From: Sinohyriopsis cumingii
Lineage: Eukaryota; Mollusca; Bivalvia; Unionida; Unionidae
Length of the DNA: 64,000 bases
Reading direction: 5' to 3'
Assembly (NCBI GenBank): GCA_028554795.2
Contig: CM068828.1
Location: forward strand, 14,870,814-14,934,813
Below, in pieces: positions 7,227 to 60,402 of the stretch (position 1 is its first letter; every line of letters starts with the position of its first letter). The notes below the pieces were generated by a model, which had not been told where the DNA came from, did no database searches, and saw nothing but the letters and a program-made list of their open reading frames with translations. The translations under genes and the position numbers were made by a program.

Positions 7227-7970
7227 TTATGGGGAGTGAAATGAAGTCGAGGACGGAGACGTGTACAGGACAGGCCCTCCGTCTTGGCACCAGTGGTGAA
7301 ACAAGTGGGTACGAAATCGCAAATCCTCGGGGGTGGTAGGTTTCAAATCGACGAGTAAATAGGCGTGTGGCGTTTGAGTGGCATCGTCGTACGCCTGAGT
7401 CAGCCAAGGCGTTCCTAACTGTTTGGCTAAGACTTGCACTTGCGATTTATCTCGAGGGCTTTTAAACAAGACCACGTAATGCGCATTGAGACTGATGGTG
7501 CGATGGGCTTTACTTTGTTGAAACAAATTTTGGGTGATGTAAACGACACTGGCATTACGGTGATAACCTTTGCGCGTGAACCACAGTTTAATTTCTTCTT
7601 CGTCTTCTCCTAACATGTCGTCAAAAATGACCAAATGGGTTTGACGGGAGTCAGAGACGATGCCGTCGTCTTCTTTAGGAATGCCTTCCACAAACACGAT
7701 GGAATCGCCTTGACTTTCTCGCAAGAGGCTGTACGCCGATTGCCACTCTTTGTAACACCACACGATCCGTTGAGGTGGCCGATCGATCAAATGATGTTTA
7801 TGTTCGATCAAACGTTTGACGAATTCGGTTTTTCTTGAACCGCTAGGTCCAGCAATGAGCATGTTAAAGGGATGGCGACGATACAAAGCCTCCCAACTGG
7901 CACGATCTAAGTGTTCGTCGATGACTTTGACAGTAGAGGAAGAGGGAGCAGAGACAGCAGAGGTAGCCAT
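7227..7970 (-). CDS. A32-like DNA packaging ATPase (A1), altered Walker A
   Basis: A 247-codon intact frame of the FtsK/HerA-like packaging ATPase family, which pumps genome DNA into capsids. Walker A lies near residue 42 and Walker B is LVIFDDM near residue 113; a YITQN sensor-like motif follows. In A1 the Walker A reads GPSGSRKT where A2 has GPSGSGKT, a Gly to Arg change in the phosphate-binding loop that should impair nucleotide binding. The C-terminal TPHAYLLVDL block is well kept. Confidence 0.85.
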   Translation of the reverse strand: MATSAVSAPSSSTVKVIDEHLDRASWEALYRRHPFNMLIAGPSGSRKTEFVKRLIEHKHHLIDRPPQRIVWCYKEWQSAYSLLRESQGDSIVFVEGIPKEDDGIVSDSRQTHLVIFDDMLGEDEEEIKLWFTRKGYHRNASVVYITQNLFQQSKAHRTISLNAHYVVLFKSPRDKSQVQVLAKQLGTPWLTQAYDDATQTPHAYLLVDLKPTTPEDLRFRTHLFHHWCQDGGPVLYTSPSSTSFHSP

Positions 7971-9959: not shown

Positions 9960-10565
9960 TCAATGTCTCGGTCCCACTAAGGGTAAGTAATGACAATTCG
10001 GTGACCATCGAGCATGTTCTACGTAGGCCGAATCTTGCGGTTCCCAGTGGTGAAGTGACACACCGCAACTGAAGCACTTGACTTTACCTCCTTCGCCCAA
10101 GTAGAAAAATCCGGCTCTGGCTAATTCTTCGGGGGTCGGTGCTCCCAGATACTTAGGCCATTTTCCTTTGAACGATTGAAGACGATTTTCAAAGTCGCAG
10201 TATTCCGACAAACCCACAGGGAACGAATATTCCTCTTTCACAGGTTCGTTTCGATGAGGGTTGGGTGACATCGACAGGAGTTTGCTCAGGGCTGGATGAC
10301 ATCCGTAGGGAGGTAGACGTGAAGGTACGCATTCACCTTTAAAATGAAACCCAGTAAAGTGTCCAAGAGGACGAGTGGCATCTCTTTCGCATCCCTCAGG
10401 TTTGACACGCACAGCATCACTTTCCATGATAGGGGTAGTGAGAACAAAGTTCCCACGATGCTTTAAGGCATCGCTAAGGTCACAGCGTACAGCATCGTTC
10501 CCATCGCAAGGCTCACAATCGCATTCCACTTCAGAGCCCCCAAACTTGAATTGTGCATGTCTCAA
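9960..10565 (-). CDS. BIR-domain (IAP-like) protein (A1)
   Basis: The C-terminal ~70 residues form a clear baculoviral IAP repeat: RLQSFKGKWP, AGFFYLGEGGKVKCFSCG, HHWEPQD and EHARWSPNC supply the Cys-Cys-His-Cys zinc set. BIR proteins block caspases or regulate ubiquitin signalling; adintovirus-class elements have been reported to carry apoptosis regulators. No RING is seen. The upstream half is unusual and Cys/Asp-rich. The frame opens at a TTG; the first in-frame ATG is 10,427, so an N-terminal lesion or a later start is possible. TATATAAAAAGG lies at ~10,650. Confidence 0.8.
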   Translation of the reverse strand: MRHAQFKFGGSEVECDCEPCDGNDAVRCDLSDALKHRGNFVLTTPIMESDAVRVKPEGCERDATRPLGHFTGFHFKGECVPSRLPPYGCHPALSKLLSMSPNPHRNEPVKEEYSFPVGLSEYCDFENRLQSFKGKWPKYLGAPTPEELARAGFFYLGEGGKVKCFSCGVSLHHWEPQDSAYVEHARWSPNCHYLPLVGPRH

Positions 10566-10627: not shown

Positions 10628-12821
10628 CTATCGATCTTGCCTAGGGTTCCTTTTTATATACAGACCAATACCGACGTGTCCATACGGTAAGGTGAAATGA
10701 TTGGGAAGTCGCACTCGCTTCTGGTACACGATTTGATAGACTTTTTCCAAGGGTCGACTAACGATGTGGTGAGTGGGTAAACGTACAATCTTGTTGGGTT
10801 GGTGAGTGGTCACTTTAAAGTGTTTATCCTCTCCAGATTGCAAGGCTTCTTTCAATACCCCAAAGTTGACCACACGACTGATACGATAATTCAGAGTCAG
10901 TCCTTTCACTTTGCACGTCGTGTGCACTTCTCCTTGTTTGTCCCGGTATTCGTAGCCGTAATTTTTGGGACCGCCACTGACGAAACTTAGAATCTTGTCG
11001 TCGGGATGCTCGTCTGTCCAGGCTCCTAATCGGTCTCCTTCCATGTCAGGGTGCTGTTGACTCGGGTGATGGATGTAAATGCAACTGTCCGTGTCAAAGT
11101 ACAGGACGCGTTCTTCTAACAGTTCTAAAGCTTCGTACAATTTTAAGCGAGCATGATCTGTCACGTAAGCCACAATGATGACATTTCCAAAAGGGTCGTC
11201 TTGTACAAAGTCCAGATCGTCTTCGTAATTGACCAAGATCAAATCCTCACGAACAACGTCCACGTGTTTCATGTATTTGGTTTTGTCGTGAATCATCTGG
11301 AAGTAGCGGGAAGGTTCTGTCAAATATTCCGTCTTGGGTAAACACGTTCGTTGTGCCATTTTACCCCACAAGCAATTTAACATCACTTTGGCAAACGATC
11401 GCCTGCCTTCGTTTTTCTCGATGTGGTCTAAAGAGATGCCTTCTTGTTCATAGTATTTCTCTTTGAATTGTATTTGGTCTTCGGGAGTGTGACACCAGGA
11501 CGGATAGCCGCTGGCTTCTTGTTTCAGTTTCAAAAAGGCATCCACGTAGTCTGCGAAAATGCCTTTCTGCGTGGGGTCACCCTTGTGGTATTGTTGTGTC
11601 TTGGGAACGTGACAAATTTCGTACACTTCTAACAGTTGCTATCCCATGTCCAGAGCTTTGAACAATTCTACGCTGACCCAGGTTCCCGTCAAGGCACGTT
11701 CTTCCTGGGTGTGCTGACATGGTTGGTCTTGGTTGCACGTTTCGGCACAAGTACGGCACAAAGGAAACATCAGTTTGCCTTGACAATGGTGAGGTAACAC
11801 GGGATGGTACAAGTCCGCGGGCGGCAAAACTTTACACTTGATCAAGCCTTCGTATTGTCGAATGTTTTTCAGGTCGATGTGTTCCGTCAACAAGTGTGGG
11901 TGCCCTACAGGAAAGCGACAATATTTGCACACGTAGGGATACAGCGAACACACGTCCAAGTATTTGATTTCTTCTCCTTTCTCTTCGTCGGCTTGGTACA
12001 GCAAACAGGTGACATTGGTCCTTCCTCCGTACAAACTATCCCTCGGGTTCAGCGGGTCCATGAACTGGTAACTTTCCACGAGGCGTTTAAACTCGGGATC
12101 GGTTTTCATACGGTGATCGTACTCGTGTTCCCACATTTCCACCACTTGGTATCCTTCCTGTTCCAACTTTATGCGCCGCTGACAAGTGTCCTGGTACAAG
12201 TCTTCCATGGTTCGTTGCAAAAACTGATTTTTAGTGTCACGGTCAGGGTAGCAGACGGGACATCCGTGAAATAAGCAACCGTTAAACTCGTACACGATCT
12301 TGGGGTTTTCTAAGTCCCAGCCATCGACCGAATACGTTCCGATGGTCTTTTCGCCCCCTCCGTTGCGGGCATGCTGAATCCACTTGTCTTCCTTGTCGCA
12401 CAAGTAATGTAACCAACGTAGGGCTTTGACCGAGTATTGACGTTTGACATAGTGGGTCGTTTGAGGGCTGATGACAGCCACGGTGTTTTCAGGCATGAAT
12501 CGTTGTCGATACACTAAGGAACACGCTTTGGCAATGGTGCAAGCTTCTTTCAAAGGATCGACCCCTCCGTGTTCCATGAACAGTTCTCGAAATTTTCCAC
12601 AGCAACACCGTAAAATGTCCACGTCGGAACGACAATAATTTAGCATTTCTTCCTGAAAGTCGAAAGGGTCGGAGGCGTGAGCCTGGTACCAAGCGTAGTA
12701 AGCTTCTCGTTGTTCGGTACGCATGTTGTCGGGGTCGTAATAGTGAGCCTCAGGTAAATGGGGTAGAACGGCGTGTTGATTGGCTTCCGTATTGAAAAAG
12801 TGTGGAAAATACCCTTTAGCC
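10628..12821 (-). pseudogene. Protein-primed-type family B DNA polymerase, C-terminal two thirds (A1), cut by B1 and by a stop
   Basis: This segment holds ExoIII (YCRSDVD, ~12,640), motif A (LDVCSLYP, ~11,945), motif B (LNCLWGKMAQ, ~11,370) and motif C (YFDTDS, ~11,090), so all polymerase motifs are present. A TAG at 11,639 interrupts the frame after ALDMG, a single-base change judging from the continuing homology. The 5' end stops at the B1 junction at 12,821; the N-terminal part lies 15 kb away at 27,846-29,709. The polymerase would replicate the element from its terminal repeats. Confidence 0.9.
12816..12821. repeat. Target-site duplication left of B1 (TTAGCC)
   Basis: TTAGCC directly precedes the AGCAGCAGGGG terminus of B1, and the same six bases follow or overlap its right end at 27,845-27,850. 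Polinton-type integrases usually make 5-6 bp duplications. Because the last base may belong to the element, the duplication is 5 or 6 bp. Confidence 0.8.
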
Positions 12822-24295: not shown

Positions 24296-26176
24296 ATGAT
24301 TGATATTTGGGGACGACCTATTTCGGCGCTGAAAGGATCCACGGAAACGCCCGCCACCGATGACATAAAAAAACTAATCGAGGATGAAATCGCTGATACG
24401 TTGAATTTAACAAGTGTTGACCCAGGTGAAATAGTTGTATTTCAAGACCGCCAGGGTAAATTGAAATCCAGTAATGTGTCGCTGGATGACGTTTTAACAC
24501 GACGGCGTGATGCCGCCGAGGACACTATCGCGCTGTATACCAGCGACGGACGACTCAAGCCGGGTGAACATCTGTCGACGATAACATTAGTCAAAGACGG
24601 TTTTATAAGGTTGAATAGATCGGTGACCGAACTTGACGCGCAGGTGAAAAAATCTCTCACCGAGGTGAAAAAATCTGTCACCGATATACAACTCACTACC
24701 GCTAGTTTTTTCGGGACCCCGACGGTAACCGAACCGAATCTTGCAACAATAAAAAATACTATTTCGGAGTTTACAACGCTGTCGGGCCAATTTTACACGT
24801 TACGAAAAAATGTTAACAGGATCGATGACAACTTTGATAAATTCTTTGGTAAAAAAAATACCAAGCTGGATGAAATCACAACAACTATAAATGATATCAC
24901 TGCGTATGGACAGGAAATAAAAACAATCAAAACTGATGTTGCAGCGAACAAAGGGAGTGTAGACGTGCATGAACGGGAAATAGAAATAATCGGCGCTAAT
25001 GTTGCAACGATCATAAATAATGTAGACTCGCATACAGGGGAAATAGGAACGATCAAAACTGATATTGTAGCGAACAAAAGGAATATAGACGCGCATACAC
25101 AGGACATAATGACAATCAGAGCTGATATTGAAGCGAACAAAAAGGGTGTAGACGTGTATAGAGGGGAAATAGGAACGATCAAAACTGATGTTGCAACGAG
25201 CAAAAGAAATATAGACGTGTATGGACAGGAAATAAAAACAATCAAAACTGATGTTGCATCGAACAAAAGGAATATAGACGCGCATACAGGGGAAATAGAA
25301 ACAATCGAACTTGATGTTGCAGCGAACAAAAGAAATATAGACGCGCATACAGGGGAAATAGAAACGATCAAAACTGATACTGTAGCGAATAAAAAAAGTA
25401 TAGACGTGCATGAACAGAGAATAGGAACGATCAAAACTGATATTGTGGCGAACAAGAATAATATAGACGCGCATGAATGGAGAATAGAAACAGTCAAAAC
25501 TGATGTTGCAGCGAACAAAAAAGATGTGGACGCGCATACACGGGAAATAGATACACTCATTACTAAGGTTGCAGCGAACAAAAAAGATGTGGACGCGCAT
25601 ACACGGGAAATAGATACACTCATTACTAAGGTTGCAGCGAACAAAAAAGATGTGGACGCGCATACACGGGAAATAGATACACTCATTACTAAGGTTGCAG
25701 CGAACAAAAAAAATGTGGACGCGCATATACAGGAAATAGATATACTCATTACTAGGATTGCAGCGAACAAGAATAATATAGACGCGAATTTGCGGAGAAT
25801 AGAAATAATCGGAACTGATGTTGAAGCGATTAAAGACGGACTACCGAGAGTAGCAGAGCAATTCGAAAAAATAAAAATCCCTCATGAGAACATCATCAAC
25901 ACAGTATACACAATTCGGCATGGATCATTCGATTGGACTCCTACACAGAATACAGTAAATACTACCGCAACTGTTAAGGGCATTTATCGATTGACACTGG
26001 TTTCAATGATGCAGTTTAATATATTATCGTCGAGTTCATCCGGGTTTAACAATACAATATCAACAATTATAGACAAGAACGCAACTGAACAGTTTACAAT
26101 TTATGCCGTTGATGGAAATTTAGCCCGGGCAAACATCACATGGTATGTGGAATTTGTAGCGAATCTAAGTAATTAA
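24296..26176 (+). CDS. Fibre-like protein with 21-residue coiled-coil repeats (B1)
   Basis: 626 codons, intact. The N-terminus MIDIWGRP...DPGEIVVFQDRQG is probably the capsid-binding part. From ~residue 200 to 520 there are about fifteen units of 21 residues (consensus EIxTIKTDVAANKKxIDAHTR), i.e. three heptads each, a pattern of trimeric coiled-coil shafts. The C-terminal ~100 residues (RHGSFDWTPTQ...ITWYVEFVA) are beta-rich and likely the receptor-binding head. Three units at ~25,500-25,690 are identical at 63-bp DNA level. B2 has about nine units, so length varies by repeat slippage. Confidence 0.75.
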   Translation: MIDIWGRPISALKGSTETPATDDIKKLIEDEIADTLNLTSVDPGEIVVFQDRQGKLKSSNVSLDDVLTRRRDAAEDTIALYTSDGRLKPGEHLSTITLVKDGFIRLNRSVTELDAQVKKSLTEVKKSVTDIQLTTASFFGTPTVTEPNLATIKNTISEFTTLSGQFYTLRKNVNRIDDNFDKFFGKKNTKLDEITTTINDITAYGQEIKTIKTDVAANKGSVDVHEREIEIIGANVATIINNVDSHTGEIGTIKTDIVANKRNIDAHTQDIMTIRADIEANKKGVDVYRGEIGTIKTDVATSKRNIDVYGQEIKTIKTDVASNKRNIDAHTGEIETIELDVAANKRNIDAHTGEIETIKTDTVANKKSIDVHEQRIGTIKTDIVANKNNIDAHEWRIETVKTDVAANKKDVDAHTREIDTLITKVAANKKDVDAHTREIDTLITKVAANKKDVDAHTREIDTLITKVAANKKNVDAHIQEIDILITRIAANKNNIDANLRRIEIIGTDVEAIKDGLPRVAEQFEKIKIPHENIINTVYTIRHGSFDWTPTQNTVNTTATVKGIYRLTLVSMMQFNILSSSSSGFNNTISTIIDKNATEQFTIYAVDGNLARANITWYVEFVANLSN

Positions 26177-27850: not shown

Positions 27851-29709
27851 ATTTCTGTCATTCCAAACGTTTTAGGCATTCGGCTCAAAGGCATGGCCAA
27901 ATAGCTCATCGAATCTTTAAACTGTACTTGTCCCACTTGCATGAAAATGATTTTGGCTCCGTTCAAAGTCACTTTAGGACGCTCGGTGACTTGTTCCGTA
28001 TAGTATCTGAGAAGAAACTGTCCATCGTATCCGGAGAAATTGTGAGCCATCACTGTGGCATGACGATGACAATCTCCGTAACGTTCGATGTCCTCTTCGA
28101 TCCACGTCTTGTCGATGGGATCTAAGACCCATTGGGCAAAATCGGCTAGCGTGTTCGGTCCCCGAAAGATTTTTTCACGCCCTCCGGGAATCTTGCTGCA
28201 GTGAGGGCAATGACTGAAGATAGGTTCTTGAATGCACTTCTCGCACGCTCGATGAGCCACGCAGAAATTAGGAATGTGAATGCCAGTCTCTTGCATGCAT
28301 TCGAAATCGAAAAAGATGAAATTGCCTTTCTTCTTGTGACCGTCCTCTTTCTCTGGTGGGGGTTGGTATTTTTGCACGTAGCATTCGTGTTCCAAGTCCA
28401 CGATGTGGTGACAAATGTGACATTTTTTCTTTCCTCGACATACGTGTGCCTTGGCATTATTGGTAAGTATGCCTTGTCCACAGGTAGGGCACATTCTCAG
28501 GAGTTGACAAGCACATTTCTTCTGTGAACCTTGCGTCTTCAAATGTTGTTGGTAACAGGTAGGGCTGACAAACGTGCGCAGACAAGTCGAACAAGGCACT
28601 GGTTCTTCGCTCAGACAGGGTGAAGAGGCCAAACATCCTGAGCATTTCCATCCACAATGTTTGTGTTGCTCTCGATTATTATAACCATAATCACATTTCT
28701 CACAGTAATATCTGTATCCCAGGAATCCGGTGATAGTGGTAATGGTATCGAAATGGTCATCGTGATAATAAACATGAATGCATTTTCCGTCCTTAAAATC
28801 TTGGCCTCGAAACAACAGAGGCCCGCGCATTTCTTGAGGGTGCACTTTCAAGGTGTATCGTGGAGCTAGGGCATCTTGCATCTCAGGAATGCCACAGGGT
28901 ATGTCTTTGGACAGTCCGGCTTGTTGTAACAGGAGTTCTGCTTCGTTTCGTTGTTTGGCTCGGTCGGATTGTTGAATAGTTCTCCAGGTTCTTTTCCATT
29001 CTACCGTGTCGTTCTTTTTGGCATAGGTTCGTCCCACCACGATGACACGGGCTAAACACATCTGGTCTTAAGGGTTGTTAATTCGGACGAGACTTGTTTT
29101 GGTGTTGCGAAGATCGTCCACCAATAACATCTTTTTGCGTCCAGTCCCTTGAGGAGGAGAGACGTGGGTCATGTCCAGTGTGGCTTTTCCATCGGTGATG
29201 TCAAACTGGTCATTAGATTGTTGTACGTGTTGAATCTTGTCCATGACTTTGGAAGCGGTCAATTCTGCAGGGGTGCTAAACTCGATCCAAACAGGGGATT
29301 TCAAACCGTCGTGTTGTATGGAAAGTCTCAAGCGATCGTCTTCTTTGGGTTGACATTGTCGCTTGAGTCCGGTGAGCAAAGAATCCCACACCCCAGTGAT
29401 AAACACTTCTGCTTTCTCTAACGGCACTTCAGCCTTGAAATCTTTAAACTTCACTGTGTATTTGTAAGCCGTGGTTCTAAATTTTCTAGAGGAGCGCTTT
29501 TCCGTCTCTCGAATGGAATAGTATTTTTCAGGGTTGACTAAGGGTGGTGAACTTGGTTTAGAGGGTTCGGATTCTGGTTCACTCATGTCCTCTTCAAAAT
29601 CACTGGCATGAATTTGTGCCAAGATTTCAGCCCTGGTACGAGGCGATAGATCACGTTTCTGCCTCTTACTTTCTTCTTCTTTCTTCTCAAATGAATGGGA
29701 TCGTTTCAT
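27846..29709 (-). pseudogene. Family B DNA polymerase, N-terminal third (A1), separated from the rest by B1
   Basis: ATG 29,709 opens a Maverick-type N-terminal region (29,709-29,068) ending TKTSLVRINNP, then a TAA near 29,065-29,067 interrupts. The same frame order continues from MCLARVIVVG with a run of CxxC zinc-like clusters (28,400-28,700). ExoI (FFDFEC, ~28,305) and ExoII (HNFSGYD, ~28,040) follow. The frame runs into the B1 edge at 27,850. The gene thus carries at least three lesions: the B1 insertion, this stop and the TAG at 11,639. Confidence 0.88.
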
Positions 29710-29843: not shown

Positions 29844-30301
29844 ATGGAAGAGACTAGCCAAATCGAACGTTTCGTCAGAGCTTTGCGAGGGGTCATTAGA
29901 AAATTCTCTTCAGACCAGCCCACGGACTACTCCCCTTCCTTTCGAGATAAAAGTCAAGATACTTGCTATATCTGTCAGAAGAAAGGGCATTGGTCTTCAG
30001 AGTGTCCAGACCGTCAAAAAAGAAAAAAACAGGGGCTAAAAAAGACAGAAGTAAAGATACCTGTTATTATTGTAAAGAAAAAGGACATTGGTCTCCAGAT
30101 TGCCCAAAAAAGAAACAAGAGGAGTCAGAAGAAAAGAGGAATTCTTCAGAAGAAGAGAGGGATTCTTCAGAGGAAGAAAAGGAAGAAAGAAGACAATTCT
30201 ATTTACAAGAGGCAAAGAAAAAGGAGAAGAAAAGAAGGGAAGAAAATGAGGAGAAAGAAGAGGAAAAAACGGTGAAGAAATTCAAAAAACAGAGAGACTA
30301 A
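29844..30301 (+). pseudogene. Two-knuckle CCHC zinc protein with Glu/Lys-rich tail (A1), frameshifted
   Basis: ATG 29,844 begins MEETSQIERFVRALRG. The first knuckle CYICQKKGHWSSEC fits C-x2-C-x4-H-x4-C. The second, CYYCKEKGHWSPDC, lies in the +2 frame, so an indel in the A-rich stretch near 30,020 separates them. The tail is almost pure Glu/Lys/Arg/Ser. CCHC knuckles bind single-stranded nucleic acid; a nucleocapsid- or packaging-like role is possible. It is one of very few plus-strand genes of A1, divergent from PolB. Confidence 0.6.
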
Positions 30302-30545
30302 ACAAGGAGAAAGAAGTCAATGAACTTTATATTAAAGTGTTCTGTTGTGAATTGTGAATTCGATTGTAACAATGGAGAAAAGAATAAATTAATTATATAA
30401 GGTAAGTGTCTTTGAGTTTTGATTTTAAAATAAGAACGTACACTCACGCACTCATACAAAGACACGTACTAAAGGGGGTAAAATGGGGGGTTTTTTTTGA
30501 GTTATTGGCAAATTGAAAGGCTATCTCTTTTCGAGAAATGTGGGT
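30302..30545. other. Intergenic AT-rich spacer (A1)
   Basis: About 240 bp between the end of the CCHC gene and the stem-loop of the convergent gene. It holds AATAAA near 30,382, usable as a poly(A) signal for the CCHC gene, and a G/T run near 30,484-30,500. Nothing coding is seen. Confidence 0.4.
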
Positions 30546-30561
30546 GGCCCTGAAAAGGGCC
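30509..30561 (-). terminator. Histone-type 3' processing signal (A1, minus strand)
   Basis: On the minus strand 30,561-30,546 reads GGCCCTTTTCAGGGCC, a 6-bp stem with a TTTC loop as in histone mRNAs. It is followed by ACCCACA and a purine-rich CTCGAAAAGAGATAG block like the U7 snRNA target. It lies 24 bp after the stop of the gene ending at 30,585, the spacing typical of histone genes. Confidence 0.75.
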
Positions 30562-30584
30562 TTTTTTTTGGTGTAGGGGTGAGT

Positions 30585-31182
30585 TTAAGCAATCAACTTT
30601 AACTGCCTTAAGCCTTTGCCACGGCCAAGGCCTACTTCTGGACTGCGTACTGTTGATGATGATGATTGGGTTGAAATCACTAAGGGTGGTACGGTAGGCT
30701 TAGTCACAGGGTTAACGTGTTTAGCTCGGGAAGGTCGTATTCTCTTCGGTCGTAATAAAGAAGTCTGATACATTTGTTTCAGACTTCTTAACTCCGCTAA
30801 AATGTCCAACAGTACCGTGACCGTTTGATTTTCACCCTCTTGTTTCTTTGCTGCTACTTGTTGTTGTTGTTGTTGTTGTTTTTTTTTTTCTTACCTCTTC
30901 TTCTTGCTGCTGTTGCTGTAGGAGAAAAGCTTGTTCCGCTTCCTTTTGTCGTTGTATAAATTTCTCCAATTCTTCTTTCTGTCTCTGTCTAAAATTCTCC
31001 ACTTGCGGTAATGAAGAAGGTAACGAAGGTTCGGGAACAAATTCTTGCGAGGTAAGAAAATCCACAAAATCCCAATTCACCTCTTCTGAAAGTAAGTCCG
31101 GGTTCCCTTGGGCAGTCTCCCCTGCTGGTGCACCCCAATGGATCGTTTTCTGAGTTTCCGTCGTGTTGAATCACTGTCGCAT
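30585..31182 (-). pseudogene. Short accessory gene with histone-type 3' end, Gln/Lys-rich (A1)
   Basis: From ATG 31,182 a TGA occurs at codon 4, after which the same frame is open through TIHWGAPAGETAQ and DFVDFLTSQEF into a Glu/Gln coiled coil with a QQQQQ run. A frame change in the T/A homopolymer near 30,880 leads to the C-terminal frame ending GLGRGKGLRQLKLIA at 30,585. So the gene has a nonsense codon and a frameshift. Its Gln/Glu helix plus basic end resembles the cassette genes at 38-40 kb of A2. No database family is recognised. Confidence 0.5.
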
Positions 31183-31383
31183 AGATTGACTGTATACAAG
31201 CGCTAGCGAATCTATATAGACCACGTTACGTCACAGACTGCTCTCTTCGGATTGGATGCGGGCTAACTGAATTTTGTAACACGTGTTCGGATTGGTGAAT
31301 GAATTCAATCCGTTTCAATCCTTCCTCTACCTATAAATAAGCGCAGTTCACTGCATTTATTCACACGTTCTCGTCGCTTCAAG
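31183..31383. promoter_or_regulatory. Bidirectional promoter with CCAAT, CRE-like and TATA sites (A1)
   Basis: The interval between two divergent short genes has CTATATAG (31,212) for the minus gene and TATAAATA (31,332-31,339) 45 bp before the plus-gene ATG. Between them are TTACGTCA (31,226-31,233, CRE-like) and two CGGATTGG sites (31,249 and 31,289, inverted CCAAT). CCAAT plus TATA is a common histone-promoter layout, which fits the histone-type 3' ends of both genes. Confidence 0.55.
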
Positions 31384-31554
31384 ATGTGGACCACAGTCGA
31401 ATCATCCACCCTTGTGTCTTCAATGATGTTTAGGACGGACATGCTCATGTATGTCCGGTCCAAGTGGACCGTTGTCGACAAGTCAGACACCAGTCTGTGG
31501 ATACGAAGAGTGTACGTAGAAAGACAAGGATGCCTCAAAAGAGTGCTGATTTAA
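31384..31554 (+). CDS. Small 56-residue protein with TATA promoter and histone-type 3' end (A1)
   Basis: ATG 31,384 to TAA 31,552-31,554 is open for 56 codons. Support that it is real: TATAAATA 45 bp upstream, and a canonical histone stem-loop 88 bp downstream on the same strand. The product is Val/Arg-rich (SSTLVSSMMFRTDM..., ...SLWIRRVYVERQG) without recognised motifs. The coding segment contains an imperfect internal palindrome around GGTCCAAGTGGACC. It is the outermost gene at this end of A1 and is transcribed toward the terminus. Confidence 0.5.
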   Translation: MWTTVESSTLVSSMMFRTDMLMYVRSKWTVVDKSDTSLWIRRVYVERQGCLKRVLI

Positions 31555-31639
31555 GGGCCAACAGTGAGACGCAGTCTAAGGACAAGAAGAAGACCAATGC
31601 GGTGCCCTTTATGTTAATGGATACATTAACATAAACCCA

Positions 31640-32014
31640 AAGGCCCTTTTCAGGGCCACCCATATTTCTCGAAAAGAGAATGACTTTCAATTGCCAACCC
31701 CATTTTTTTTTTAAATATTTTAATTTTTTTAAAAAAATAAATAAATCCCATATTCAATTTCCCTTGACGCTAGATTGTCCCACGATTTTTCTCCATATTC
31801 AATTCCCCTTGACGCTAGAGTGGCCCACGATTTATTCCCATGTTAAATTCCCTTGACGCTAGAGTGGCCCACGATTTATTCCCATGTTAAATTCCCTTGA
31901 CGCTAGAGTGGCCCACGATTTTTCTCCATGTTAATTTTCCATTGACGCTAGAGTGGCCCAGGGGTCTCTGTAATGCTAATTTCCATTGACGCTAGGGTGG
32001 CCCACTTCACTACT
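31640..32014. repeat. Right terminal inverted repeat of A1 with six tandem ~44-bp units
   Basis: It matches, inverted, 37,688-38,010 of A2. The inner part carries the histone stem-loop and an A/T tract. The outer part has six units containing TTGACGCTAG and the palindrome GTGGCCCAC (unit cores at about 31,764, 31,809, 31,852, 31,897, 31,943, 31,986). It ends CCCACTTCACTACT, after which A1 and A2 flanks differ. Confidence 0.8.
31642..31682 (+). terminator. Histone-type 3' processing signal inside the A1 terminal repeat
   Basis: GGCCCTTTTCAGGGCC at 31,642-31,657, then ACCCA at 31,658-31,662, then CTCGAAAAGAGAATG as the purine-rich downstream element. All three parts and their spacing match metazoan replication-dependent histone genes. 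It serves the small plus-strand gene at 31,384. Confidence 0.8.
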
Positions 32015-32493: not shown

Positions 32494-32586
<93 letters not shown>

Positions 32587-33420
32587 ATGTGTGGGTGGGT
32601 GGGTGGGTGGGTGGGTGTGGGGGTGGGTGGGTTCATCAACAAATACTTTATTCCTGTCTTACGATTGGTTTCTGCAATCCATTTGTGACCAGAATTTACA
32701 TTTGTTTTCCGATATAATTTTAGAAGAATTATTCTTTGAAATCATTGATTGGAAAAAGGACTCATTGACTGTGGATTAACGCGTTACGTTCGTATTTTTG
32801 TGAGTTCATTTAAAGACGTTCAAGACTGCATCATTGGTATGTCAGGACAGTCAAGACTATTGAAACATAAGGACTGTAATACCTTTGGAATTAAATCGGA
32901 ACATTCTATGCTTTTGGATTTGAGATAGGACATTTTGGATTATTTGGAATTCGATTCACAATACTGTATCTTGCGAATTTTTATTTTGTATTCTGAGAAA
33001 CAAATTATATACTAAATTTTACTTAAATTATTGGTTTCTTTTCCTTTCTGTTACATATTTAGGCCCTATAATCGTAACACATGAAATAAAAAATACGAAA
33101 TTATTAAACTAGGATACTCCTTTGTTGTTATTGTGGGTTCAATGCCATTTTCACCATGGACTAATAATGGTGGCCAGTTTAAATGGTGGAACAATATATG
33201 TAATAGCGTGTGTCTTTATATAAATACATCCATATCCACCACTGATAAGCATTATACCGAATTTTTTATCTCTTTTTGTCAACAATTTCACGAGTTAGGT
33301 ATATTCAGTATTTTGAAGCCGCCTCAACAAAGCCAAAATGCCCACAACCCCATACATGTACACTTTATGATCGCTGAGGTCTTCGCGCTAATGGTTTTGA
33401 CCATTAAGCTGCATGTAAAT
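32015..33420. other. Non-element spacer, AT-rich, no gene seen
   Basis: Apart from the microsatellite at 32,493-32,632, this stretch is AT-rich unique-looking DNA with only short spurious frames. It begins with a (TA) run immediately outside the A1 terminus. No RNA gene or transposon ends were recognised. Confidence 0.5.
32493..32632. repeat. Compound microsatellite (GT)n(AT)n(GT)n(GGGT)n
   Basis: About 23 bp of GT, 54 bp of AT, 20 bp of GT, then GGGT units. Three overlapping open frames across it are artefacts of dinucleotide periodicity. Confidence 0.95.
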
Positions 33421-37075: not shown

Positions 37076-37687
37076 GGTGGTGTATAGTGTATAGGGTTGG
37101 TGGGTGAGTGGGCGGGCGGGCCAAAGCAAAGAAATTGTATTTGATCTGTTGTGCTGGTTTTTATTTGTTCGTTTTTCTATTTTATTCTTGTGGGGGCTGG
37201 TGGGGGCTTTTTTAAGTTAATCTAGGTTCTCAGCTTAATCTGGACCTACCTGTCAGCTGTGTTGAAAGTTTCATGTGTTCTCCCAAGGAATACGCACTGA
37301 AAAACATAATTGCTTATTTATTCGAAAAATTTAAACTCAGAACCAGCATTCAAGTGCACAGACGTTATTCTTGTACTTTGCTTCTAGCAGCTGCATTTCT
37401 CTCCCTGGTCCACCATAGCTAAAATGTACTTAAAGTGTCACTTAATGTTGCTGCATTGTCCGTTGTTAATTATACACTTTAAATTACGTAACTCAATCTC
37501 CGATGAATGATTCTGACATATCAATTGTAGTTTACATCAAGTGTCACTTTGAATAATAACATGTAACTTTTCTATTTGACCTTAAAATCCGACACTCTTA
37601 TAATGTTCATTTATGTGTATTCATACATTTCGCAAAGTTTGTTTTACCCTTTTCTTCTGCATTCATTTATTCGTTCGATCATTCATT
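37076..37687. other. Spacer before A2, no gene seen
   Basis: About 610 bp of AT-rich DNA with a G-rich patch (GGGGGCTGGTGGGGGC at ~37,192). It ends in TTCATT directly before the AGTAGTTAAG terminus of A2. Nothing else recognised. Confidence 0.45.
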
Positions 37688-38010
37688 AGTAGTTAAGTGG
37701 GCCACTATACGTACAATGGAAATTAGCATTACGGAGACCCCTGGGCGAATATACGTACAATGGAAATTTAACATGGCGAAAAATCGTGGGTTAATATACG
37801 TACAAGGGGAATTAACATGGGAAAAAATTGTGGGCCGATATACGTACAAGGGGAATTTAACATGGGGAATAGAGTTTGGGGGTTGTTTAGGGACAAAGGG
37901 GAATTGAATATGGGATTTTTTTTTTTTTAAAAAAAATTTTTTAAAAAGGGGTAGGCAATGGAAAGGCTATCTCTTTTCGAGAAATATGGCTGGCCCTGAA
38001 AAGGGCCTTT
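37688..38010. repeat. Left terminal inverted repeat of A2
   Basis: Inverted relative to 31,640-32,014. Four outer units carry ATACGTACAA where A1 units carry CTAGCGTCAA, although the flanking unit sequence (CATGTTAA, GTGGCCCAC-like) is shared. So the array has been homogenised separately in each element. The inner end includes the A/T tract and a histone stem-loop. Confidence 0.8.
37965..38007 (-). terminator. Histone-type 3' processing signal inside the A2 terminal repeat
   Basis: Minus strand 38,007-37,992 reads GGCCCTTTTCAGGGCC, followed by AGCCA in place of ACCCA and by CTCGAAAAGAGATAG. It mirrors the A1 signal at the opposite end, so each visible terminus ends an outward-reading gene. 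Confidence 0.78.
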
Positions 38011-38221
38011 GGGTTTTCTTCTTCTTCTTCTGCTGCTTCTAGTTTCTTCTTTTTCTCCACCAAGTTCTTATTTTATCTCCAACACTCTTTCTCTTCTTTT
38101 CTTTCTTTTTTTTCTCCTGCTCTTCTTTCTTCTTCTCTTCCTCCTCTTCTTTCTTCCTCTTTTCATTTTCTTCTTCTTTTTAAATTTTTTCATTCCATGC
38201 TCTCATCCTTATCCTTTCCTC

Positions 38222-38428
38222 TTAATCCTCCTTCTCCTCCTTTATTTCTTTCAACAGATCACTGATGATTACCTTCATTTTTCGTAAATTGTTTATCTCC
38301 ATCTTCACTCGATGGGGACTATAAGAATAGTGATCCTCGTTTAGGTTAACCAACATTTGCTCTATCATTCCTAAATTGTCGAGGACGTTTTGCAATTTTT
38401 CCATTTTGTCCATTTGGTTAGAAGCCAT
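38222..38428 (-). CDS. Cassette gene 1, short helical protein (A2)
   Basis: 68 codons from ATG 38,428. The protein starts MASNQMDKMEKLQNVL and is helical, ending in a charged DLLKEIKEEKED segment. Beyond the stop, 38,010-38,220 on this strand is a long purine-rich, Lys/Glu-coding-like stretch before the stem-loop, so the original gene may have been longer and lost its frame. The conserved upstream box lies 60-90 bp upstream with GTATAAGAAT between. It shares an N-terminal plan (Met, KL, hydrophobic heptads) with cassettes 2 and 3. Confidence 0.5.
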   Translation of the reverse strand: MASNQMDKMEKLQNVLDNLGMIEQMLVNLNEDHYSYSPHRVKMEINNLRKMKVIISDLLKEIKEEKED

Positions 38429-38473: not shown

Positions 38474-38520
38474 TGGATTCTTATACGAAAAGCGCGGACG
38501 TGAAGGAAAACATCCCCCTA
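38474..38520 (-). promoter_or_regulatory. Cassette promoter box 1 (A2)
   Basis: Plus-strand AAAGCGCGGACGTGAAGGAA continuing AAACATCCCCC at 38,489-38,518. On the gene's strand this is GGGGGATGTTTTCC then TCACGTCCGCGC, followed within 10 bp by GTATAAGAAT. Confidence 0.6.
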
Positions 38521-38926: not shown

Positions 38927-38968
38927 GTTATTTCTTTTCTAGAGTATTGGGTAGCCCTTAAAAGGGCT
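38927..38968 (-). terminator. Histone-type 3' processing signal, cassette 2 (A2)
   Basis: Minus strand 38,968-38,953 reads AGCCCTTTTAAGGGCT, a 6-bp stem with loop TTTA, then ACCCA and CTAGAAAAGAAATAAC. It lies 30 bp after the stop at 38,999. The outer stem pair is A-T instead of G-C, with both sides changed, i.e. compensatory. Confidence 0.75.
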
Positions 38969-38998
38969 GTTTTTTTTTTGAACTCCAGATGCACCTAT

Positions 38999-39307
38999 CT
39001 AATGGTTGCACCTTCCTGGCCTGGCGCCACACACGCATCTTCTTCCCCAGTCTCCTTTCACCTTTCTTCTGGGGAGCGCAGAGGGTGGATGATTCGCTTC
39101 AACACCCCAATCCTCTGTCTCGGGAATATTGTACGACATCCTCTCTTCTAGTTTCTTTTCCTCCTCTTCCCTCTGTCTTCTCTCCTCCTCTTCGTTCTTC
39201 ATTCTTTCCTCTTCTACTATAGCCTCCGCGGCTAGTTCATTTAACAGGCGCCTGACATATTCCAGATGTATCTGGAGTTCAAGAAGTTTGCTTATTCTGC
39301 TATTCAT
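38999..39307 (-). CDS. Cassette gene 2, short coiled-coil protein (A2)
   Basis: ATG 39,307 is used; an earlier in-frame start would be TTG. 102 codons: MNSRISKLLELQIHLEYVRR leads into an Ala/Leu helix and a long Glu/Arg coiled coil (EEERRQREEEEKKLEER), then a less structured end with CVCGARPGRC. CACTATAAATTG and the conserved upstream box lie 50-90 bp upstream. The N-terminal KLxxL...VRxLL pattern is shared with cassette 3. Confidence 0.55.
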   Translation of the reverse strand: MNSRISKLLELQIHLEYVRRLLNELAAEAIVEEERMKNEEEERRQREEEEKKLEERMSYNIPETEDWGVEANHPPSALPRRKVKGDWGRRCVCGARPGRCNH

Positions 39308-39354: not shown

Positions 39355-39400
39355 TCAATTTATAGTGAAAGCGCGGACGTGATGGAAAACATCCCCCTAA
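39355..39400 (-). promoter_or_regulatory. Cassette promoter box 2 (A2)
   Basis: AAAGCGCGGACGTGATGGAA continuing AACATCCCCCT at 39,368-39,397 (plus strand), with the minus-strand TATAAATT just downstream. A weaker copy (GCGCGGACCTAAAAGAAA) lies at 39,446. Confidence 0.6.
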
Positions 39401-39730
39401 AAACATAAAATTGATCTTACCTACATCATGACCAAAAATCAACAACGCGCGGACCTAAAAGAAACACTCACTTTTTATGCTACCCATCACTATTTTAAAA
39501 TTTTTTATAAATCACTTCAATAGACTATCCACATACTCAAAGCAATCCAATCTAACCCCAAATTTACACCTCAAACACCAAAAAAAGACATCATTTTAAT
39601 CTACTATCCATACCAACTTACTTAACCACTTACAAACACAAACACACAAACACATACCCTCACATTTTTTTTAAAAAAGAGTTAGTGTTTATTTTCACAC
39701 TACTCTACCTACACACATTAGCAAATGGAT
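39401..39730. other. Spacer between cassettes 2 and 3 (A2)
   Basis: Non-coding. It contains the weak box copy, a degenerate version of the 88-bp repeat, a run of A/T and a CACACTACTCTACCTACACAC stretch that is also present before the cassette 2 signal, showing that cassette plus spacer duplicated together with a period of ~805 bp. Confidence 0.5.
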
Positions 39731-39731
39731 T

Positions 39732-39773
39732 GTTATTTCTTTTCTAGAGTATTGGGTAGCCCTGAAAAGGGCT
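39732..39773 (-). terminator. Histone-type 3' processing signal, cassette 3 (A2)
   Basis: Minus strand 39,773-39,758 reads AGCCCTTTTCAGGGCT, then ACCCA and CTAGAAAAGAAATAAC. It lies 27 bp after the stop at 39,801 and is almost identical to the cassette 2 signal. Confidence 0.78.
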
Positions 39774-39800
39774 GTTTTTTGTTTGCTATGGCATTCTTTT

Positions 39801-40160
39801 TTAGTTTCTAAGAATGCGATGTCCTCTGAGGATAGACTTTCTGGCGATAGGTCTGCTTCTTCGAAAAGAGAAGAAGAACTCTTTGGTGTCGATACGACAA
39901 TCGACAAAGCCTCTGTCAGCTTCAGGTTGCTGCTGCTGCTGTTGTTGTTGCTGCTGTTGCTGCTGTCTCTGAAGTCTGTACTTCTCCGTCCATTCTTCTT
40001 TCTCCCTGTTCATTTCTTCTCTGAAGAGCTCTTCTATCAGGTCTTCAGTGATTTTTAACATTCTCACATTCTCTATTTCTTCTGGCTTCGGTATCAGACT
40101 GTGTCTGACCCTATGCAAATTCACGTAGGCTTCGTTGAGTTTAGCTAGATTGGAACACAT
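39801..40160 (-). CDS. Cassette gene 3, coiled-coil protein with polyglutamine (A2)
   Basis: ATG 40,160 is used (TTG upstream). 119 codons: MCSNLAKLNEAYVNLHRVRH opens a helical region, a second helix EELFREEMNREKEEW follows, then a run of 13 Gln and a Ser/Arg-rich C-terminus (FRRSRPIARKSILRG). The Gln run is coded by mixed CAG/CAA. With cassettes 1 and 2 it forms a diverged tandem family; the function is unknown. The short, charged, fast-changing products suggest host-facing accessory proteins. Confidence 0.55.
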   Translation of the reverse strand: MCSNLAKLNEAYVNLHRVRHSLIPKPEEIENVRMLKITEDLIEELFREEMNREKEEWTEKYRLQRQQQQQQQQQQQQQPEADRGFVDCRIDTKEFFFSFRRSRPIARKSILRGHRILRN

Positions 40161-40207: not shown

Positions 40208-40252
40208 CCCGGTTCTTAAAGTCAAAGCGCGGACGTGAAGGAAAACATCCCT
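40208..40252 (-). promoter_or_regulatory. Cassette promoter box 3 (A2)
   Basis: AAAGCGCGGACGTGAAGGAA continuing AACATCCC at 40,224-40,251 (plus strand). On the gene strand TTTAAGAA follows in the TATA position. Confidence 0.6.
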
Positions 40253-40654: not shown

Positions 40655-41969
40655 CTAGTAATCTAGGATGACTTCTCTCAAACTGTTGATTTCTATGGTA
40701 TTATCGAATTCTGCATACAGGATGACGTTCACCGTTTCATCAGGGTCTCGGTCTTTAAACTGAATTTCCACACGAATCTGGCCGGATTTTATAGGGTGGA
40801 AATGTCCCTCGTCGCTGCCTTGGTCTGGAGTGAAATCGAAAGCCCACAAAGCATAGCCTCCTGCATAATCCTCGTACGTAATACCGTGACTGGTATTGGT
40901 TCCTAACTGTCCGGTGGCTTCGTACAGGGACAAGTACGATCTCAAGTAATTCTTCTTGGTAAAGTCAGGTTCGAAAGGTCGGGTACACAAGATCTTGCCA
41001 TCGCGACTGACTTCGATTTTGGACACGCCAAAGTGTTGAAAGTAGAAAGGATTTTTTTCGGCAGCTCCGTTGAAGGCTGTATTCTCGACGATACCAACGA
41101 TCAAACGTTTGGGTAACTGTCCTTGGAACAGATGATCTTCGATCATGGATCGCTGTCCAGCGGGAATGGTGAAGGTTTTCACTTCCACGCGTCGTATGGG
41201 ATACTTGGCAGTCGTTCTGCTCAACGTCTGACTGATGTCGTTTCCCACTTTAGGTAACACTTCCACACGGCGTACGTAGAGTTTGGCTTCTAGGATTTTG
41301 GTTTTGTAACCGTCACTATCAGCCATCAAATGGAAAGCGGCACTGCTACGATTCAGTCTCAGGCGGACATCCACCCCGTTCAGCAAATACTTTTCTTGCA
41401 ACCACATGTCCAAATGCAAACGATCCATCAGTTCTAAACTTGTATCGGCTCCCGTGATTCTCTTTCTTCGTTCTACAAAATCCATCATTGTTGTCTTTCT
41501 TTTCATCAGTTTCCAATATTTCAAACTTGGTAGGTTCGTCAGCTTCCCATACCACACAGGCATTGAGATGAGTGTTCTTGGCATCTATTCCGTACGTCAA
41601 GAGATTTTCCAGGTAGGCACGATAAGGGTAAGTATCCATGCTGCTACTGACCAGTTTGTTATTCAAGTACAAGTCCACTCCACTGAACAAGGAATGCATG
41701 AAATTGTTGACGGGAGCTACTGCTTCATCGTCTATAGCACCTCCAGTCTTATCTAGAATTTTGACTTTCAGGTACAAGTAACTGCTATTCAGATCGATGT
41801 AATCTTCGGGCTGTCCTTTGATTTCAAACTCGATGGGAGCGGAATCGGTCAGTGAGGAGACGGGGTGAAATTCCACCCACTGGGATTCTTGCATCGTCAT
41901 CATCGTGGGGGGCATGGCAAACAGATCCAGTTCCGTCTTGGAACAAGCGCAAGATTCTCGGTGCATCAT
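40655..41969 (-). pseudogene. Hexon-like major capsid protein (A2), frameshifted
   Basis: N-terminal frame 41,969-41,346 and C-terminal frame 41,584-40,655 overlap; the switch lies at about 41,470-41,530, in the NNDGF region. Unlike A1, the C-terminus (NTIEINSLREVILDY) is in frame and the segment missing from A1 (residues ~75-95) is present. So the two hexons carry different lesions. The TSLELMDRLHLDMW and SLYEATGQLGTNTSHG blocks are well kept. Confidence 0.85.
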
Positions 41970-46262: not shown

Positions 46263-47769
46263 TACTTAGATCCGCTACAAATTCCACATACCATGTAATG
46301 TTTGCCCTGGTTAAATTTCTATCAACGGCTCTAATTGTAAACGGTTCAGTTGCGTCCTTGTCTATAATTGTTGATATTGTATTGTTAAACCCGAATGAAC
46401 TCGACGATAATATATTAAACTGCATCATTGAAACCAGTGTCAATCGATAAATGCCCTTAACAGTTGCGGTAATATTTACTATATTCTGTGTAGGAGTCCA
46501 AGTGAATGATCCATGCCGAATCGTGTATACTGTGTTGATGGTGTTCTCATGAGGGATTTTTATTTTTGTCATTTCCGGTAGTCTGTCTTTGATATCTGTA
46601 ACATCAGCTCTGATTGTTCCTATTTCCTGTGTATGCGCGTCTATATTCCCCTTAATCGCTGCAACATTAGTTTTGATTGTTTCTATTTCCTGTGTATTCT
46701 CGGTCATACTTTTTTTGTTCGCTGCAACATCAAGTTTGATTGTTCCTATTTCATATGTATGCACGTCTATACCTTTTTTGTTCGCTGCAACATCAGTTTT
46801 GATTATTCCTATTCCCCGCCAATACGCGTCTACATTTTTTTTGTTCGCTTCAATATCAGTTTTGATTGTTCCTATTTCCTGTGTATGCGCGTCTACACTC
46901 CTTTTGTTTGCTGCAATATCAGTTTTGATTATTTCTATGTCCTGTGTATGCGCGTCTACATTATTTATGATCGTTGTAACATCAGTTTTGATTGTTTCTA
47001 TTCTTCGTCCATGCGCGTCTACATTATTTATGATCGTTGCAACATTAGCGCCGATTATTTCTATTTCCCGTTCATGCACGTCTACACTCCTTTTGTTCGT
47101 TGCAACATCAGTTTTGATTGTTTCTATTTCCTGTCCATACGCAGTGATATCATTTATAGTTATTGTAATTTCATCCGGTTTGACATTTTTTCTACCAAAG
47201 AATTTATCAACGGCGTCATCAACCCTGTTAATATTTTTTCGTAACGAGGTAAATTGGCCCGACAGCGTTGTAAACTCCAAAATACTATTTTTTATCCCTA
47301 CAAGATTCGGTTCGGTCACCGTCGGGGTCCCAGAAAAACTAGCAGTAGTGAGTTGTATACCGGTGACAGACTTTTGTATCCCCTCGAACTGATTTGGTTG
47401 CGCGTTAAATTTATCATAGAAATTTTTTAACGAATTCGACATGGATATATAATTGTCGCCCAGTGTATTTATTTTTCCATTTATCGTCAAGATGGATTCA
47501 CCTGATTTAAGTCGTCCGTCTCCGGTATATAGCGCGATAGTGTTCTCGGCTGCATTACGCTGTCGTGTTAAAACGTGATCCAGCGACATATTACTGGATT
47601 TTAATTTATCCTGACGATCTTGAAATACAACTATTTCGCCCGGGTCAACACTGGTTAGATTTAACGTATCAGCGATTTCATCCTCGATTAGTTTTTTTAT
47701 GTCATCGGTGGCGAGCGTTTCCGTGGATTCTTTCAGCGCCGAAACCGGTCGTCCCCAGATATCAATCAT
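46258..47769 (-). CDS. Fibre-like protein of element B, nine coiled-coil units (B2)
   Basis: 503 codons, intact. The N-terminal DPGEIVVFQDRQ and C-terminal RHGSFTWTPTQ...WYVEFVADLSN regions match B1, but the shaft has about nine 21-residue units instead of fifteen. The unit sequences are more varied and lack the perfect triplet of B1. An upstream segment (KINTLGDNYISMSNSLKNFY) is absent from or different in B1. Variation in shaft length and in this collar region would alter virion reach or receptor use. Confidence 0.75.
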   Translation of the reverse strand: MIDIWGRPVSALKESTETLATDDIKKLIEDEIADTLNLTSVDPGEIVVFQDRQDKLKSSNMSLDHVLTRQRNAAENTIALYTGDGRLKSGESILTINGKINTLGDNYISMSNSLKNFYDKFNAQPNQFEGIQKSVTGIQLTTASFSGTPTVTEPNLVGIKNSILEFTTLSGQFTSLRKNINRVDDAVDKFFGRKNVKPDEITITINDITAYGQEIETIKTDVATNKRSVDVHEREIEIIGANVATIINNVDAHGRRIETIKTDVTTIINNVDAHTQDIEIIKTDIAANKRSVDAHTQEIGTIKTDIEANKKNVDAYWRGIGIIKTDVAANKKGIDVHTYEIGTIKLDVAANKKSMTENTQEIETIKTNVAAIKGNIDAHTQEIGTIRADVTDIKDRLPEMTKIKIPHENTINTVYTIRHGSFTWTPTQNIVNITATVKGIYRLTLVSMMQFNILSSSSFGFNNTISTIIDKDATEPFTIRAVDRNLTRANITWYVEFVADLSN

Positions 47770-59393: not shown

Positions 59394-59602
59394 AGCAGCA
59401 GGGGGGGCAATGACATCGACGCGGTCGTCGCGCTTTTTTACCGGACGCTGACGACGCTGGGATCGGCGCGCAGAAAGTATTAATTAAACCAAATGACGAT
59501 TGGACGACCCCCGACGACGACGTCGTTTTTTTTTACCGGGCGCTGACGACACCGGATCCGCTGAGTGCAGAAAGTATTAATTAAACCAAATGACGATTGG
59601 AC
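59394..59602 (-). repeat. Right terminal inverted repeat of B2, outer ~35 bp missing
   Basis: It begins AGCAGCAGGGGGGG at the inner edge and matches the left repeat until GACGATTGGAC. Directly after that, A2 integrase sequence resumes (AAAGTGC, then TTTGGTTTTGCC). Confidence 0.82.
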
Positions 59603-60402
59603 ATTTCAAAAGTGCATTTGGTTTTGCCAATGCGCACCCAATCTCCTACGGCCAACTCTCCACTTTTCTTGGGGACAGCCCTCGTCGGGGACGTACCAAA
59701 CAGGCGCTCAAACACCAACACTTCGTTGTCGGGAGTCACGTCTTGCGGGGCACGTCCAATGCTTCGATGGTAAGATTGGTTGTACGCTTGCACCAGGTGT
59801 GGTAAGATGTCGATGTACTTCAGAGTGTGGTGATGCGTAAAATATTTCCACATGCGTTCTTTCAAAGTGCGTTGAAAACGTTCCACGATGCTGGCTTTGG
59901 TTTCGGGATTCTCGGTGGTAAAAAAATGAATGTCACGCTTCTTTAATTCTTTTTGGAAAGCTTGGTTCAGAAATTCGGTGCCTTTGTCCGTTTGCCATCG
60001 AAGAGGGTGACGACCGCTTTGTTTCAGCACTCGTTGCAGGGCTCGCACTAACTCGCTGCTCGATTTGGAAGTCAAGTGTACGACCCAGGCAAATTTGGAA
60101 AAGACGTCGATGACACAAAACAAATATTTGTAGCCACGATTGTAGCTGGCCAAATGAGAGACATCGGCTAAATCGGCTTGCCATTGATGATCGATGCCTT
60201 CCACTCGGGTGCGACTTCTGGCAAACTTGCGTCGAATGGGTTTGTGTAAAGTGTAGGTAGCTTGTTCTTGTAACCATCGTTGCACTTGAGGTAAACGGAG
60301 ACTTTTCAGTCGAGTTTTGGCAGCATGATACAATTTTTGAACTCCTGCGTAACCTGCAGGATGGGAGGGATCGTAGTAAATGCTGGCTAAGACTTTTTCC
60401 AT
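59603..60402 (-). pseudogene. Integrase N-terminal part (A2), cut by B2
   Basis: ATG 60,402 opens the N-terminal region that is frameshifted in A1 (VQKLYHAAKTRLKSL). The DDE core follows (WQADLADVSH, WQTDKGTEF, ASIVERFQRT) and coding runs to the B2 edge in the SH3-like region (VGDWVRIGKTK). Apart from the B2 insertion no lesion is visible. Confidence 0.85.

Follow-up and report, generated by a model that had tools for sequence, protein, structure and literature searches.

The small genes at the ends of a Maverick/adintovirus-like element of the bivalve Sinohyriopsis cumingii appear to be built like replication-dependent histone genes, to encode proteins other than histones and to rely on the host machinery for short S-phase mRNAs without poly(A), a reading to which we assign a probability of about 0.8. 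The best reading of the DNA is that the accessory genes at the ends rely on an expression cassette captured from histone genes. The histone-type interpretation of their 3′ signal is supported, at the level of sequence, by its agreement with host histone 3′ ends, its recurrence across element copies and the presence, in front of three of the five genes, of a histone promoter motif. The window (the whole 64-kb stretch of DNA that was analysed) holds two copies of the element, which we call A; about 5.7 kb of other DNA separates the end of the left copy (about 32014) from the start of the right one (about 37688). A was recognised as a member of the Maverick/Polinton/adintovirus group by its rve integrase, type B DNA polymerase (PolB), A32-like packaging ATPase and terminal inverted repeats. 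Pfam placed the ATPase (Pox_A32) at 7227-7970 (−) and a type B polymerase piece (DNA_pol_B_2) at 11639-12724 (−) in the left copy, and the integrase (rve) at 59581-60402 (−) in the right copy; A also encodes a chromodomain piece and type B polymerase pieces, and 408 proteins of the protein collection are related to its ATPase. The capsid-position genes of A gave no Pfam match, and the core gene at 40655-41584 (−) of the right copy, for which no Pfam family scored over the cut-off, is capsid-like by position only. The right terminal inverted repeat of the left copy (31633-32014, +), which starts at a stem-loop and continues as a tandem repeat of about 44 bp, pairs with the left terminal inverted repeat of the right copy (37688-38016, −), so that the two arms come from two different A copies; of 30 alignments to fetched loci, 28 terminate at 37678-37688. 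This gene set, the inverted terminal repeats and the small end genes are shared with Maverick/Polinton elements and adintoviruses, whereas the histone-type 3′ end and, in part, the histone promoter are additions of the terminal genes of A. A further A gene, at 9960-10427 (−), encodes a protein with a BIR (inhibitor of apoptosis) domain, and long TG/TA simple repeats lie between the A copies at 32495-32620.

The first-pass annotation had placed a histone-type stem-loop, ACCCA and HDE, in the order and spacing of histone genes, within the terminal repeat. Both statements were borne out: Rfam returned an RF00032 match at 31637-31682 (+) with 40.8 bits (gathering threshold 34; E 1.4e-8 for the window), in which the stem-loop GGCCCTTTTCAGGGCC (31642-31657) is followed by ACCCA and then by GAAAAGAGAA, and the match sits at the inner edge of the repeat 31633-32014. 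The predicted fold of 31637-31682 has a free energy of −16.1 kcal/mol (z −3.47). The signal follows gene a (31384-31554, +), the outermost gene of the left A copy, an ORF of 56 codons whose stop lies 87 nt from the stem. The same annotation had described this ORF as a TATA-driven 56-codon frame; the ORF and the upstream TATAAATA are present, but the frame is a truncated copy of a gene of 76-78 aa, the full form being found in 13 of 18 copies from 28 fetched loci and shorter forms in the other 5. In these 13 full-length copies the loop begins 19-24 nt after the stop. The region 31200-31383 is the divergent promoter region that serves a on one strand and b on the other; by eye, each strand carries a TATA-like box.

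The claim that the signal ends the outermost gene holds as well, but the signal does not stand alone. RF00032 found five units, all within 26-42 kb of the window, of which three score over the cut-off of 34 (35.6-41.8 bits) and two under it (31.0 and 31.1 bits). The rest of the 64-kb window gave no RF00032 match at E≤1, and the other (core) genes of A and all of element B, a second Maverick lineage nested in both A copies, are thus without the signal. All five units fold as a 6-bp stem with a 4-base loop, TTTC or TTTA, and the closing pair changes in a paired manner between G-C and A-U. Each lies in sense after one of the small genes a, b, c, d and e, which are short frames without interruption, four of the five having a TATA-like box by eye. 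Gene b (about 30588-31161, −; ends approximate, from a three-frame reading) encodes 182-193 aa in intact copies; its copy in the window is broken, with the start codon absent from its usual place and a frame change in a Q-rich run, and is followed by the stem-loop, ACCCA and HDE at 30521-30566 (−; 41.8 bits). Gene b, with its histone-type loop, is faced by a convergent CCHC zinc-knuckle gene (29844-30275, +) that has AWTAAA at +56 and +108. In the right A copy, gene e (38222-38428, −) is a truncated frame of 68 aa with its stop 214 nt before the loop, the longest copies seen being 126 and 132 aa, and its stem-loop and HDE at 37967-38012 (−; 35.6 bits) have AGCCA in place of ACCCA. Gene d (38999-39307, −; 102 aa) and gene c (39801-40160, −; 119 aa), both defined by ORF and copies, are followed by stem-loop, ACCCA and HDE at 38928-38973 (−; 31.1 bits, below 34) and 39733-39778 (−; 31.0 bits, below 34), each with an A-U closing pair. 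The HDE of the outer units is able to form a small hairpin in the predicted fold.

The element units were then compared with the host's own histone genes, the comparison resting on one histone repeat unit (L069) that contains H2B, H2A, H1, H3 and H4 frames, each with an RF00032 loop (35.0-39.4 bits), an HDE core and a stop-to-loop distance of 27-38 nt. The 16-base loop of host H2B is letter-identical to the outer loop of the element. The host HDE reads CTAGAAAAGA in H2B, H1, H3 and H4 and CCCGAAAAGG in H2A; that of the element reads CTCTAGAAAAGAAATAA after c and d and TCTCGAAAAGAGA after a, b and e. Of 138 element units, 124 have the HDE core at +14 from the stem (5 at +13, 2 at +15, not found in 7), the position that it also has in host H2B and H3. 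The closing pair in these 138 units is G-C in 71, A-U in 63 and another pair in 4. A match at the 5′ side had not been anticipated: the 250 bases upstream of gene d contain an H2B/H1-type motif (39370-39393, −) with 24 bases identical to the host H2B promoter and an H4-type motif (39444-39464, −) with 21 bases identical to that of host H4, where shuffled sequences reached 13 and 12. The motifs of gene c (40226-40249, −) and gene e (GATGTTTTCCTTCACGTCCGCGCT, 38491-38514, −), found by host promoter comparison, share 13 identical bases with the host and most of the remaining motif; since letter shuffles reach up to 14 over all comparisons, these 13-base matches are not decisive alone. The promoters of a and b, including the region 31200-31383, showed no likeness to host histone promoters above shuffles. 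The terminal genes of A share with metazoan replication-dependent histone genes the stem-loop with its TTTC/TTTA loop and flanks, the HDE core and its spacing, the short stop distance and, on three genes, the promoter motif; they differ in that their proteins are not histones and in that they are dispersed by a mobile element.

Promoter motif and 3′ end were also followed across the genome. The promoter motif GATGTTTTCNNTCACGTCCGCGCT has 24,957 genome matches, the host H2B/H1 copies included, and its reversed form has none. Loop and promoter pairing was scored on 100 loop places and 77 promoter places among the matches listed, promoters beyond the loop-covered stretch being left out. Among the AU-closed inner loops, 46 of 58 have the motif 422-514 bp upstream on the same strand and none has it on the opposite strand, and 32 of 58 have a same-strand motif downstream, that of the next gene; an upstream motif accompanies only 1 of 42 GC-closed outer loops. 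Conversely, a sampled loop lies 150-900 bp downstream of 48 of the 77 promoter motifs. Among the loops themselves, 29 of the 42 GC-closed ones are followed on the same strand, at 10-20 kb downstream, by an AU-closed loop, against 4 upstream and 3 on the opposite strand as controls (100 places sampled); this is the distance at which c/d should lie from b within a single element.

Absence of the stem-loop from the ends of related elements, which had been named as an observation that would speak against the claim, was looked for within this genome, and the stem-loop recurs across element copies. The pattern GCCCTTTTNAGGGCYACCCAN{4,14}GAAAAGA, which covers stem-loop, ACCCA and HDE, is matched exactly at 28,754 places of the genome and in reversed form at 0, on which ground a chance match was rejected. 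The c-d-e module has 52 matches in its own 2.9 Gb genome (40 candidates scored), and 36 of them, the window included, extend over at least 1.59 kb at 95-100% identity. In 30 fetched loci, the loop after c is the same as that of the window in 26 of 30, the one after d in 27 of 30 and the one after e in 26 of 29. Loci L009-L038 were chosen for the likeness of their entire end module at the DNA level, and L001-L008 and L039-L058 by RF00032 score, so that the loops of the latter are biased toward intact ones. From 75 RF00032 places scored in the genome, which are no census and most of which score above the host histone loops of L069, 28 were examined by eye and by their frames; all 28 are element ends and none is a histone gene. 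At least six gene families precede the loop, namely a to e and a sixth, f, of about 180 aa, and the frames that are intact stop 18-39 nt ahead of the loop. One locus (L054, 2572-3570, −) has a 332-aa frame that joins an adenain-like protease front, recognised by eye, to a family f tail and is followed by a histone-type loop. Some element copies have broken frames or loops. Over 30 copies, change amounts to 0.4-1.3% in loops (with 13 indel cells), 2.1-3.4% in spacers and 1.1-1.7% in coding parts, rates that come from young copies and say little on selection, the spacer d-e figure counting tandem-repeat cells repeatedly. Taken together, some 28,700 stem-loop and HDE sites and 25,000 histone promoter motifs suggest element copies or remnants on the order of ten thousand, many of them probably dead repeats, a load that would be unusually large for a Maverick.

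Polyadenylation signals were also mapped around the loops. Of 133 units, 7 have AWTAAA in the 100 nt that precede the loop and 37 have it in the 120 nt downstream, genes a and c of the window among the latter, so that polyadenylation could serve as a fallback or as the main route. The host shows comparable positions, with AWTAAA likewise after the loop in H4 and 40 nt before it in H2A. The core gene 40655-41584 of the right A copy has AWTAAA at +169 and +268 and no stem-loop, and beyond it come c, d and e with promoter motifs and loops; in the left copy no AWTAAA was found within 300 nt after the corresponding stops. Of the 19 other A genes tested, only 2 carry AWTAAA in the 300 nt that follow the stop, so that a clean divide between core genes with poly(A) signals and genes with loops does not emerge from these data. 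The downstream AWTAAA, the very many genome copies, the number of broken frames and a loop change judged no lower than the coding rates would all fit a cassette that derives from host histone genes as a copy and travels unused in the repeats, any transcripts being polyadenylated. We regard this as unlikely given that the signal follows at least six different small gene families, that the closing pair changes in a paired manner from G-C to A-U with near-constant HDE spacing and a stop 18-39 nt before the loop in intact frames, and that one relative from a metagenome (P0133) carries the signal.

Much less probable still is that the element ends use the hairpin as a signal in DNA or for replication (a terminal palindrome, packaging or integrase site) and that it only resembles a histone loop. 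Two of the five units do sit at the inner edge of terminal repeats, but three lie outside them and all five are in sense after a gene; moreover, a DNA palindrome would have no need of loop, ACCCA and HDE, which are determinants in RNA, and a histone promoter motif is also found on three of the genes. A replication palindrome was rejected on these grounds. That the elements carried off histone genes, of which the small genes are decayed descendants, would explain why promoter motif and 3′ end are common to host histones, but is likewise highly improbable and was rejected, as Pfam found no histone family in a, c, d and e, blastp of a to f against the five host histones gave no match below E 0.2 (best 0.22, a to H4), and b and f have metagenome relatives; none of these small genes was found to encode a histone-fold protein or H1.

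In the histone pathway, U7 pairs with the HDE and CPSF73 cleaves between loop and HDE, as described in PMC7026596, and PMC1794435 attributes to the loop 70% of the rise of core histones in S phase. On the preferred reading of a captured histone-gene cassette, host SLBP, U7 snRNP and CPSF73 would cut the pre-mRNAs of the terminal genes between loop and HDE, and the products would be short mRNAs that end directly behind the stem, lack poly(A) and accumulate in S phase; genes a-e may then be early accessory genes that serve replication in S phase. The likely purpose would be expression of accessory (early) genes during host DNA replication, or expression without splicing or polyadenylation. With less assurance, we lean towards the view that a virus-like element took over the host histone cassette (the 3′ end on all terminal genes, the promoter on some) for early accessory genes, which would bring these under the histone locus body/SLBP-U7 pathway and under S-phase timing. 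Searches for the host factors were also made. The SLBP domain PF15247 gave 0 matches in the genome, as did the controls, and introns can split the domain. Rfam gave one sub-cutoff U7 match in the genome (29.3 bits), whose 3′ stem was judged unconvincing, and a U7 pattern matched 11 places against 2 for its reversed form; in 6 of the 11 that were fetched no stem was better than shuffles, the best Rfam U7 score being 16.4. Because the host histones have loops and HDEs, we take these results as a limit of the search.

To our knowledge, the histone 3′ end is generally held to be nearly private to histone genes. If our reading is true, the more than 28,000 sites may far outnumber the histone genes of this genome as histone-type 3′ signals (histone loops not counted) and be enough to draw on SLBP and U7. 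If the cassette is used, it would be a new route coupling genes of a DNA virus or transposon to host DNA replication, as well as a natural test of what the cassette alone does, and it might burden host SLBP/U7. Such transcripts would escape RNA-seq that selects for poly(A), a possible reason why they were overlooked earlier. Viral histone genes (bracovirus H4, those of Marseillevirus and others) encode histone proteins; they likewise draw on the host histone system, whereas A takes the regulatory cassette and not the protein. In the papers searched, PMC11071296 among them, no description of a histone-type 3′ end or promoter on Maverick/adintovirus terminal genes was found.

Relatives were also sought outside this genome. 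Metagenome contigs about 0.9-2.3 kb long carry 20 relatives of gene b (P0121-P0140; 56-92% identity), which indicates that related viruses exist elsewhere, and gene f has two metagenome relatives. P0133, a b relative with 62% identity and the one relative outside this genome in which the signal could be assessed, extends past the usual stop with the tail QWPISGPPTSLEKR, which agrees with the translated loop-HDE region of genome copies at 12 of 14 residues, where 20 shuffled tails reached at most 7. It is one of 17 aligned b relatives, most of which end at the usual stop. For its letters to fit the stem-loop, the position that closes the loop has to be changed; the unchanged stem-loop pattern was fitted by 0 of 142 proteins compared. 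Among viral contigs, neither a search with the PolB N-terminus nor an ATPase alignment search (67 stretches) returned a relative, and the exact stem-loop pattern had six matches, none with GAAAAGA within 32 nt (Rfam was run on three of the six). Bacterial and archaeal contigs gave 4 distant ATPase loci from 136 stretches, on short contigs, with no RF00032 match at E≤0.01.

The second lineage, B, occupies about 13.1-27.6 kb and 44.3-59.4 kb of the window in opposite orientations and, judged by gene order, is inserted in the polymerase gene of one A copy and in the integrase region of the other. It encodes a double jelly-roll capsid, integrase, helicase and A32-like ATPase, together with an adenovirus-protease match under the cut-off. 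One B gene contains an in-frame tandem repeat array of 63 bp (24776-25894 and 46525-47217) whose extent differs between the B copies, and its product looks like a long coiled-coil or fibre-like protein.
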